From: Phalacrocorax aristotelis
Lineage: Eukaryota; Chordata; Aves; Suliformes; Phalacrocoracidae
Assembly (NCBI RefSeq): GCF_949628215.1
Contig: NC_134286.1
Location: 1,054,001 to 1,118,000, forward strand
DNA: 64,000 nucleotides
Direction of reading: 5' to 3'
Both the position numbers and the translations under genes were made by a program. The notes under the pieces were generated by a model, which did not search any database, was not told the origin of the DNA, and saw only the letters and a list, made by a program, of their open reading frames with translations. Of this stretch, positions 18,271-55,900 are shown one piece after another. Within the stretch, counting starts at the first letter, position 1. Every line of letters begins with the position of its first letter.

Positions 18271-18540
18271 TACAGGGGTGTCGGGGGCAGCACAGGGCAC
18301 CGGTGGCTCCTGATGTATGGGGGTGTTGGGGGCAGCACAGGGCACTGGTGGCTCCCGACGTATGGGGGTGTCGGGTGCGGCACGGGGCACCGGTGGCTCC
18401 CAATGTATGGGGGTGTCGAGGGCAGCACGGGGCACCGGTGGCTCCCAATGTATGGGGGTGTCGGGGGCGGCACGGGGCACCGGTGGCTCCCGATGTATGG
18501 GGGTGTCGGGGGCGGCGCGGGGCACCGGTGGCTCCCAAGC
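18271..18540 (+). repeat. 45-bp minisatellite, six copies
   Basis: Six head-to-tail units of exactly 45 bp start at 18271, 18316, 18361, 18406, 18451 and 18496. Each contains 'gggtgtcgggggc.gcac.gggcac', then 'ggtggctccc.atg', with a few substitutions and no indels. The strand carrying it is G-rich. Because 45 is a multiple of three, long open frames appear on both strands; they are by-products and not genes. Confidence 0.97.
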
Positions 18541-42075: not shown

Positions 42076-47669
<5,594 letters not shown>

Positions 47670-51871: not shown

Positions 51872-52094
51872 GTTTGGACGGCCCTTGGAAACCATGATCT
51901 GGGAACTTTTTCTCTTCTCACGTTTGCTGTAATGCGCTGGGGACCCCCAGTAAGCGCATGCGATGCTGACCTATATTCCGGCACTCGGGAGGGAGGCCGG
52001 GGTTTCGACAGGCTCTCGGGATGGATTCCCAGTGGGCAGGCCCAAAGGCTGCACAGAACTGCGCAGTCTCCAGGCAAGGCAGTACACGGGGCAG

Positions 52095-52643
52095 CTCAAG
52101 AAAGAATTTGAAAAACTATGGATGGCAGCAGGAAGGGATAAGGGAAAAGTTCCACCTGTCTGGGACCCAGGAACAGCAATGGTGACATCCGAGGAGCCCG
52201 GCGGTGAGGAACCAGTCTCAGAATGGGAGATACCCGCTCCAAAAGGCATCTCCTGTAACTGGAGAAAATAGGCGTTCAGGGAATGGGCCAAGCTGGTTTC
52301 CCAGGGCCGTGATAGTTCCAGCTTTGAGAAGGACAAGATCAGTTACAACTGGTGAGAGTTTTGCAGGTGCATTCCCCACAGAAAACTCATTGCTGCGTTA
52401 CAGTTGAGAGAATTTCCAGCAAGGGGTACACAGGAAAGTAAAATTAAATCTTGTCGACACTGTCAAGCGGAGAATGAGTCCTGCGCACATGTTATTGGAT
52501 ACTGCCCAGCAGAAGAGGATGCCAGGATTAAAAGGCACAATCACTTATGTGAATTTTTTGCTGAAGAGGCAAAAAAGAAGGGCTGGGTAGTATTCCAAGA
52601 GCCACCGCTGCGAGATGAACAGAATGAACCACATAAACCGTAA
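52095..52643 (+). pseudogene. R2-like remnant: linker and CCHC zinc-knuckle segment
   Basis: One reading frame runs from about 52095 to the TAA at 52641-52643, interrupted by only two stops (52269, 52353). The zinc knuckle is CRHC at 52452-52463, followed after eight residues by H and after four more by C (HVIGYC), a C-X2-C-X8-H-X4-C arrangement typical of RLE-type elements. It continues with DARIKRHNHLCE and AKKKGWVVFQEPPLRDE, the hallmark run between the knuckle and the endonuclease. Confidence 0.8.
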
Positions 52644-52985
52644 TCATTAAAGGCGACCAAGCCCTGGTCGCGGACGTTGCAGTTAGGAGTGAAAGCAAAT
52701 TAACATCTTTGGTGGATGCAGCAGCAGCGAAGGTTAAGAAACACCAACACCTAAAAGAACAAGTGCAGGAACTGACTAATGTTAATATCATCAAATTTAT
52801 GGGATCTCCGTTAGGCGCACACAGAAAATGGTATCAGGGCAACTACGAGTGATTGAAAGAACTTGGACTTTCTGGCTCCCAGCAGAAGTTATCTCCTCAG
52901 TTATCAAATCAGGCATTGTTCTCTTAAGTGGACATTATGCATAGGCTTGCTAGTAAAGTAAGAACCATTGTAAAATCTTAATGTT
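52640..52985 (+). pseudogene. R2-like remnant: broken restriction-like endonuclease domain
   Basis: After HKP the frame breaks exactly where the first catalytic aspartate of the P-D...D-V endonuclease motif is expected. In the next frame it resumes as IIKGDQALVADV, which carries the second aspartate (52673-52675). Then follow DAAAAKVKKHQHLKEQVQEL and IKFMGSPLGAHRKWYQGNYE before TGA at 52850. The end matches the last residues of R2 proteins. The domain cannot be active. Confidence 0.78.
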
Positions 52986-55900
52986 TGATGATAACTCTGT
53001 TATATGATGATTTGTAAATAAACTGACCTTTCCTCTCTATCTAAGGTGAGAGCCTGACCCCCCTGGAGCTGCCAAGGGTGACAAAAGCTTGTGATAACAA
53101 GGGCGAGAGTAAGTAGGGATGTATTAGGTCACGGTATCACGATGTGTAATTCCTGCCAAAAAGACAATTTTCACTGTTTTTTACCAAGATGGACAGGCCA
53201 CCTATACTTAACCCAGAAAAGGAACACGCATATATGTTCAGTAAATAGTCATGCCAAAGTAAACATCACTAATTACTTTCAGGTCCTCCTTGTAGTTCCA
53301 TGGTTTCTTTTCAGTGGAATGGATTGCCTTGAGCTAGACAGACACCGTAGAGTTTGTCTTTTCTTAATAGGAAAGAAAGAATTATTCTTTGTGGGGATAA
53401 AACATGAATGACATGCTGGGTACAGACTGTTTTTCTGCCAAGGTACTCAATTAAATCTCCCTGAAAAAGTACTTGAGCTTTTATTCTTACGGCTTTCCTT
53501 GGAGGTAGTAAAATATAATTCCCATTTTGCAGACAAGGACGAAAGATCAGACAATTTGTGTGGGATTACCCAGGACACTGGTGTGCGGAGTTAGGAGATG
53601 AAAATTACTTCTTTGGATACGCTGGACCAGCCTTTCCATAGTGACGGCTGACATACAAGCATCGTGTAAAACTACCCACAGCAAACTGGTGGCGTGCTGA
53701 GGAATGACACGACCTTGTGATCCAGGTGCTGTATTATCACGGGCCACATTTTGCCAACGTAACTAAAGGAGCCATGCACAGCACCCCGTACGTTTGCCCT
53801 GGAACACCTAAAATACCCAGCTCCGCAGCCTGGAACCAGCGCAATCTTTCTAATATTGTGCGCTAAGAGACATTTGAGTATGTTTGCCACTTTCTTTTTT
53901 GCAGTATCACCTAGAGAGAGGTCTTGGCTAGATTGTGTCCCTTGCCAGGAGAGGGAGAACTTCCCAAATCAAGAGAGGGAGTCGGCTCTGGCCAACCGCC
54001 TTTGTAAAGCTTGACACAAATGTACCTGACAGGCTTTCCGTGACTTCTCTAATGTGCCTGCAATTATTTCTAATTCAGTGCGCCAGACGCACAGCAGAGA
54101 TCAGCTGTAGTACATATAGGTCACCCACAGCAAAATGCTCAAGCGGGTTACAGGCACATAATTCTAAGCGGTGAGAGAGTACAAAATAGCATTCTAAAAT
54201 TTCATGTTATTTCCTATTTCCTATTACAATCGAATGGCTTTAAAGTAAAAACAAGGTAAAGTAACCAAGGGGCACGCGATAAGTTCAGAACATGAGATCT
54301 GACATATGGTAATCCTGAAGATTTGCCCTTGACAAGGAAGACTTGATTGATATAGCGGAGACAAGACATACAGAGGCGGCAATCATCACTGATGCTGCAG
54401 CTGATGATCACAGTCCATCAGGAGGAGGAAACGAGCACTGCCAGGTTCAGGCAATGTTGTGGGATTCTTCCCAGTGCAGAGGATTCAACACCAGGAGAAA
54501 AAGCCAGGCAGGCTGTTCTGGAGCCAACTCCACTGGCAGAGGTGGGTGAGTTGCTGTGGAAGCTTCTGTTGTGCCTTTTTTTCTTTAGTTTGAAGAAAAC
54601 CCCTCTGGGAGGGTGGGACGATGCACTAGACTAAAAACTGCTCTGAAGGTTCTAAAAAACAACCAAAAAAAAGGCCTGGTCTGATTTTACCAGCAGCTAC
54701 AAATGTGCAAATGGGAACCAAGAGCCCTGTTCCTTTAATAGGTGATGCAGAAGATAAAATACTATTTGCTAGAAAAAGTGAAATAAGAAGCCTTGAAATG
54801 CTTCTGAAGACTCCCTGGAGGCAGGGATGACATGAGCCTTAAAACACACAGTTGCAAAGCCTCTCCTTGAACAGCAGCTTGCTTTATCAGAAAGTGACCC
54901 GAGAACCGATGGTGTTCTGCAGGTTATGGCTGTGCTCTGAAAAATGCTGGTTTTTCACTGAAAATCTGAATGAAAGCCAGGATGTAAAAGTAATCAATGC
55001 CGATCTGAAATTTTAGCTATGAGCAATAAGTTTTACTCCATTCCATTAAATTATTTTTTTAAAATCCTTTTCCCTTAAGAAGCCAATATTTCTCTGCAAA
55101 AGCAAAATTTCACCTCAGCCTCTCAAGCCAGACTAAGGTTACTGAGTGTGGCTGCTGCCAGCTCCCAGGGATCTTGCCACGGAGCTGGAGGAGGCAAACA
55201 GCTTCAGAGGACACAGCCCTGTGCCAGGAGCACGTCTTTCAGGGAGGGAAGTCACAGCTGAATCACAGCCAGAAGCAGCAAAGTGCCTCGTCTCAGGTAT
55301 GTGGAAGGTCGCTCTGGCAGCGGCGCACCCTGAGACAGCATTCCTTACCTTCACCTGACCAGCGCCCATCTGCTCTGCAGCATCCTTTTACACCTCCTCT
55401 AGCCTGGGCGTTTCCCACTGGGATTCTTTTGTACCTATAATATTCAGCGTCTCTTTTGGTGGCTCTTACCTGAAGAAAAAAAGATATCCCAGAATGAGTA
55501 TCTCAGTCTTTCAGAGGTTACATTTTTGAAGATGGCTGTTCCAGCTTGGATTAGTTTGCGTTCATATTACGAAAAACATTTCTTGCATTCAGTCCCTTCT
55601 CGCTTTTCAACTGCACTTCATTCAACTCTGCTCCAAGAAGGGCAGAATTAGGCAGTGCTTTATTTTCTCTCCTCAGTATTATTGCCACTTCCCCAGCTGC
55701 GCTCACTAAAATTCCTGGCTCTCAAGAAAAAAAAAAAAAAATCTACATCTACTATTTCCTTTAAAGGCCTGATGCTGCATTCACATTCCTGAATGATGTA
55801 TGAACCCCCGTATCTCCTTTTCAGTATCCAAAAATTCAGGGATAGAGACACCACGCGCTCCAGAAGGCAAGCCTTGCTCTGTTGCTAACGGGCATAGGGA

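Follow-up and report, generated by a model that had tools for sequence, protein, structure and literature searches.

A truncated R2 copy in ordinary genomic DNA

The window, a 64,000-nucleotide stretch of the Phalacrocorax aristotelis genome, carries on its forward strand a 1,300-bp R2 copy made up of a 5'-truncated, broken open reading frame (ORF) and a 3' UTR. The features of the locus are given below with the evidence on which each was placed.

42076..47652, reverse strand: GPCR-like gene pieces outside the element; 42076-42723 resembles peptide receptors, 46793-47652 seen as ORFs only
51872..51945, forward strand: host flank; no reported match of another copy begins before 51946, though many copies extend farther 5'
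51946..53245, forward strand: 5'-truncated R2 copy, 1,300 bp; alignment to 20 of 20 copies, comparison of 5' junctions, anchored 3' end
51946..52090, forward strand: post-RT piece, R2Tg residues about 1030-1074; E 4e-10
52098..52268, forward strand: linker, R2Tg residues 1087-1143, with an in-frame stop after it; E 2.5e-4
52452..52505, forward strand: C-X2-C-X8-H-X4-C zinc knuckle, CRHCQAENESCAHVIGYC; direct reading, within the E 4e-34 match
52530..52553, forward strand: KRHNHLCE run, start of the endonuclease region; translation, E 4e-34 match
52643..52981, forward strand: C-terminal part of the endonuclease region, containing two in-frame stops; 52643-52846, E 9e-15
52982..53245, forward strand: R2 3' UTR ending ..TTCAGTAAA (R2Tg ends ..TTCGATAAA); common to most fetched copies
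53246..53248, forward strand: TAG at the 3' junction, the first three bases of the 28S target TAGCCAAATG

In a phmmer search of the sequences of solved structures, four pieces of the window, collinear and lying in two frames, matched the zebra finch protein R2Tg (9dou_A): 51926-52075 with residues 1024-1074 (E 4e-10), 52098-52268 with residues 1087-1143 (E 2.5e-4; the same piece matched 9nl2 with E 6.3e-5), 52359-52640 with residues 1174-1274 (E 4e-34), and 52643-52846 with residues 1278-1345 (E 9e-15). The edge of the first match, at 51926, overlaps the host flank. For 52359-52640, as for the reverse transcriptase (RT) piece of a sister copy, R2Tg ranked above the R2 of 9nl2 and this above 8gh6/8ibw, which we take to be Bombyx R2, and for 52643-52846 R2Tg was again followed by 9nl2. 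A further piece in the neighbouring frame (52786-52941) had no match among the solved-structure sequences, and none of five window pieces scored above the Pfam cut-off. Judged against these solved-structure sequences, the window copy appears closest to R2 proteins, R2Tg foremost.

The copy starts after the RT domain and retains the linker, a CCHC knuckle, the endonuclease region and the 3' UTR, in the order expected downstream of the RT; N-terminal zinc fingers are missing from it through truncation and are represented by a zinc-finger piece in the sister copy L041. Its ORF changes frame twice and contains four in-frame stops, and the ORF's own stop (52979-52981) falls, by hand count on the frame, at about residue 1388/1390 of R2Tg. 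The 5' junction was placed at about 51946, where 16 of 36 alignments to other copies begin within 20 bp, and the copy aligned with all 20 fetched copies at 73-81% identity. Its 264-bp 3' UTR, compared with 325 nt in R2Tg and 248 nt in R2Bm, is shared with most fetched copies and ends in an R2Tg-like manner, with some bases of the R2Tg 3' end missing.

These results uphold the segment order that the initial annotation had read from the translation, its assignment to the R2 clade, with R2Tg and 9nl2 as best matches, and its description of a 5'-truncated fossil outside ribosomal DNA (rDNA). The span it had proposed (51872..52985) does contain R2 sequence, but its first 74 bp (51872-51945) are host DNA and it stopped short of most of the 3' UTR. 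No rRNA or 28S flank was found around the copy within the window, and the copy does not sit in a 28S gene at TTAAGG^TAGCC. Because of this, and because the 28S junctions of sister copies (see below) are read as retrotransposed tails, we class the window copy as an R2-derived off-target copy and not as an rDNA-resident R2.

The receptor pieces on the reverse strand, which may belong to GPR83, the gene named in the initial annotation, include a peptide-receptor-like GPCR segment at 42076-42723 (best E 6e-25). Elsewhere in the window, 18275-18536 holds a tandem array of 5.8 copies of a 45-bp unit with 91% matches.

Dispersal of R2 through the genome

The window's own assembly (1.279 Gb, 352 contigs) was searched with four queries, and merging the results by place yielded at least 93 distinct R2 places on 20 contigs, the window included. 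Of these, 74 were identified by alignment, a few of them from short pieces and one being a duplicate pair, and the other 19 solely by exact matches to a 19-base pattern from the 3' end. The stretch first annotated as R2 gave at least 41 matches (40 of 94 candidates scored), the RT part 34 matches from 31 candidates, and the 3' UTR at least 41 matches (40 of 147 candidates scored), recovering the window 3' UTR again; the 3'-end pattern occurred exactly at 34 places, compared with 0 for the pattern read backwards. The search for further copies that the initial annotation had proposed thus placed the window copy in a family, so that it is no lone oddity. It had also named, as a finding that would count against it, hundreds of dispersed copies of a known non-rDNA family; that case does not apply as worded because the dispersed copies, of which our count is a lower bound, are R2 itself, three of them with 28S tails.

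The copies are truncated at the 5' side to different extents, and most of them have the same 3' end. One long copy, L041, lies outside rDNA, resembles R2 across about 3.9 kb of the fetched stretch and includes an N-terminal zinc-finger piece resembling R2Tg residues 206-325 (E 4e-25). The RT part of a sister copy matched R2Tg with E 5e-116 and is nearer to R2Tg than to 9nl2. R2Tg, or R2-1_TG, belongs to avian R2 lineage A, a lineage also present in reptiles, and the family described here resembles it in its collinear ORF, in this RT piece, and in a 3' end of the form ..GTTCRATAAA followed by the start of 28S; it differs in that the window copy is truncated and broken and that R2 is here widely dispersed. 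Near the 5' side of the long copies L041, L038 and L082, Rfam gave no match to an HDV-like ribozyme, and a comparison for extra shared sequence upstream of L038 and L041 found none between L082 and L083.

A tree of the copies was star-like, with long tips, mostly weak support, and unreliable long branches for L036 and L019b. Such a tree, the at least 93 places and a long non-rDNA copy with an N-terminal zinc-finger piece would be expected had a daughter R2 family lost its 28S specificity and spread as a dispersed LINE from dispersed sources, as reported for R2NS. We consider this unlikely, given three lines of evidence set out below: 28S read-through tails in three copies, residual 28S code at the junctions, and 32 compared 3' flanks in which no carried-along source sequence was seen.

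28S tails behind R2 3' ends

The 28S gene reads TTAAGG^TAGCCA at the R2 target, and a probe was built on this sequence with 29 nt upstream of the junction. It matched three places, and all three matches begin at base 30, so that each 28S fragment opens precisely at the R2 downstream junction and follows an R2 3' end. In L031 and L030 the R2 3' end aligns by BLAST right up to the 28S sequence; in L029 only the 3'-end anchor aligns (score 45), BLAST gave no R2 match, and the remainder was read by eye. Rfam recognized 28S in L029 and L031 and not in L030. By eye and Rfam combined, the tails are about 190 to 500 bases long. Those of L029 and L031 appear by eye to stop at nearly the same point in 28S (..GGGTTTTAAGCAG), which might be a favoured end of the RNA.

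The tails are best read as retrotransposed read-through RNAs from R2 elements residing in 28S genes. For the copies without a 28S tail we infer an rDNA source as well, the tails themselves being present in three copies. Probes for the upstream part of 28S and for 18S gave no match to intact rDNA or an rDNA-resident R2 in the assembly, an absence that shows nothing by itself. The juxtaposition of 28S and R2 at three places could also arise if pieces of R2-bearing rDNA units had been moved by recombination or duplication, with no retrotransposition. That would leave unexplained the many 5' truncation points, three clear target duplications and few-base matches in place of 28S blocks at 48 junctions; the probes found no upstream 28S either, and we regard this origin as very improbable.

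Most junctions begin like the 28S target

The sequence immediately downstream of R2 was compared in 48 copies anchored at the same 3' end, 30 from a first set and 18 of 20 from a second. This sample excludes L021 (a duplicate of L020), L014 (3' end unanchored), the 28S-tailed L029-L031, and L017, L037, L038, L040 and L041 (no anchored 3' end), as well as L062 and L078. As printed in PMC12222951, R2Tg ends ..TTCGATAAA and the 28S target continues TAGCCAAATG.

Directly after the R2 end (..AATAAA), the anchored copies read TAG in 33/48 cases, TAGC in 27/48 and TAGCC, the start of the 28S target, in 15/48, against background frequencies in the flanks of the first 30 copies of 1.26%, 0.24% and 0.08%, respectively. 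With re-used sites collapsed, the counts were 31/45, 26/45 and 14/45. Position by position, matches to TAGCCAAATGCC numbered 43, 45, 36, 36, 25, 17, 14, 13, 9, 7, 8 and 10 of 48, decaying toward background by about position 9, and TAG is missing in 15 of the 48 junctions. R2 did not land at random. Of the 14 TAGCC junctions, 8 continue with T instead of the A of 28S, which may be chance.

Sites unrelated to the 28S target, the hallmark of R2NS, are therefore not what this family shows (TAG in 33/48, TAGC in 27/48), with the proviso that a dispersed source could still transmit TAGC and may account for part of the copies. The initial suggestion of a recorded lapse in target choice is borne out; of the other possibility it had raised, a related clade with another target, we found no sign, since most flanks open with bases of the 28S target itself and the best protein matches are R2Tg and 9nl2. 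In the window copy itself, we read the TAG at 53246..53248 as a primer/template match at the insertion site.

Target duplications and re-used sites

Clear target duplications flank three copies, L012 (up to 34 bp), L019 (up to 28 bp) and L023 (up to 21 bp), and as many as 4 bases of these lengths may come from the element itself. TAGC is present in the 5' duplicate of each of the three, and this duplicate is host DNA in L012 and L023; in L019, the site was the 3' junction of an older copy, L019b, precisely where a second R2 had inserted and duplicated up to 28 bp. The duplications show that, in these copies, the junction bases preceded insertion at the site. The window copy has no clear target duplication.

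Three insertions, L012, L022 and L024, occupy one site of a repeat that looks ERV-like by eye, each with a different truncation point. By BLAST, the upstream flank is common to all three and the downstream flank to L012 and L024 only; in L022, about 25 downstream bases match the shared L012/L024 repeat by eye. The upstream half of the site is ATAAGG in both L012 and L022 and has disappeared from L024, and TAGCC after ATAAGG is visible in the 5' duplicate of L012. Transduction of 3' flanking sequence was ruled out for these three copies because their upstream flank is shared too. Among the 32 3' flanks compared, L012/L024 was the sole shared pair, reflecting the shared target repeat, so that no source flank carried along from a dispersed progenitor was found.

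Sequence upstream of the insertion sites

Six motifs derived from 28S were scored in 26 5' flanks against 200 shuffles, with 5' junctions uncertain by several bases. GGGAGTAAC (positions -25 to -17) reached a score attained by 0/200 shuffles. GGGAGTA, from the region named in PMC12222951, scored 125 against a shuffle mean of 114.4 (5/200 shuffles reached it), peaking 3 bases off the assumed junction; GGAGTAA was likewise reached by 5/200 shuffles and the 15-mer CGGGAGTAACTATGA by 13/200. In the same 26 flanks, neither TTAAGG (151/200) nor CTCTTAAGG (156/200) was enriched just upstream, and T at -20 gave no peak at the assumed junction (5/26, mean 7.2). The upstream rule is thus weak in the natural copies.

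Divergence and selection

Setting aside L036 and L019b, copies diverge from the family majority by 4.5% to about 20%, and the window copy, at 133/1230 (10.8%), ranks 19th of 32 in rising order. Neutral rates in birds are around 1-2 per billion years; at such rates, the divergence of the window copy would correspond, very roughly, to tens of millions of years.

Counts by codon position and of majority bases leave out L036, L019b and L031. Variants shared by at least 4 of 29 copies fell on codon positions 1, 2 and 3 at 48/330, 47/331 and 73/329 sites, an excess at the third position (73/329 vs 95/661, P 0.003), whereas singleton variants were spread evenly (P 0.88). Because the bias is confined to the shared variants, selection seems to have acted on the template lineage but not on the copies. 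Recruitment of the window stretch as a host gene or as a regulatory element, for which we found no support beyond its position about 4 kb upstream of the opposite-strand GPCR-like pieces, is hard to reconcile with the two frame changes and four stops in its ORF or with its mid-range rank among the copies, and seems to us exceedingly improbable.

Probable natural off-target insertion by a 28S-specific R2

On the combined evidence, the window copy very probably arose, like many others in this genome, when a 28S-specific, R2Tg-like R2 element inserted off target in nature. On this reading, the R2 protein would have nicked sites whose downstream strand could base-pair with UAGC(C), the bases that come after R2 in its RNA, reverse transcription would have been primed at the nicked site, incomplete copying of the RNA would have produced the 5' truncations, and joining of the loose end would have duplicated or removed target DNA. 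Neutral decay of the dispersed copies would have followed, with selection continuing to act on the source lineage. At the window copy itself, the evidence runs against an off-target reading in that the junction match is TAG only (3 nt), there is no duplication, and the upstream motif matches at 4 of 7 bases.

R2 is reported to occur solely at the rDNA site in most species, among them the zebra finch (PMC11371274). Avian R2 remnants, truncated and mutated and some with non-rRNA flanks, have been described and explained as remnants (PMC5035012), and dispersed avian R2 pieces were already noted in 2016. They resemble the present copies in these respects; for them the accessible text reports neither a copy number nor a junction code, and neither target duplications nor dispersed 28S tails. 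R2-superclade elements outside 28S are also known from the non-specific R2NS families reported in planaria and in liver fluke (PMC5035012) and from R2-like elements of cockroaches (PMC7650587). These are separate non-specific families, whereas here the link to 28S persists.

The closest parallel comes from human cells. R2Tg there inserted at 1530 off-target loci with a 4-5 nt match downstream and a further match 19-25 bp upstream, including a strong T at -20 (PMC12222951), and PRINT off-targets had little sequence in common except a primer-complementary stretch downstream of the nick (PMC11371274). The natural copies share with these R2Tg and ZoAl R2 off-targets the few-base downstream 28S match and a weaker upstream match; they differ in being natural and old, with a weak upstream signal and no visible T at -20. 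The downstream rule of R2Tg off-targets is clearly reproduced by the natural copies, mostly over the first 3-7 bases. In the accessible part of the open-licence literature we found no genome-wide natural set combining this laboratory junction rule with 28S-tailed copies.

R2 is regarded as site-specific, and avian R2 proteins are under development for gene insertion in human cells. The roughly ninety stray places indicate that missed targets arise and persist in nature too, and they offer an independent test, over evolutionary time, of the off-target rule of a few-base primer match, as well as datable markers of R2 activity in the lineage. More tentatively, loose targeting to short 28S-like landing sites may have been a regular route of germline spread, partly from dispersed copies, making this a half-specific R2; we think this possible but doubtful. 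If true, it would provide a natural catalogue of off-target rules for R2 gene-insertion tools.

Contig C35 (31.3 Mb; among its copies L009, L010 and L012) holds 9 of the 93 places, one duplicate pair included, compared with 2.3 expected (P 0.0005; P 0.002 without the duplicate), and the three least diverged of 32 copies all lie on it. Judged on size, C35 and C36 might be the W and Z chromosomes, which slower mutation in the female line would fit.
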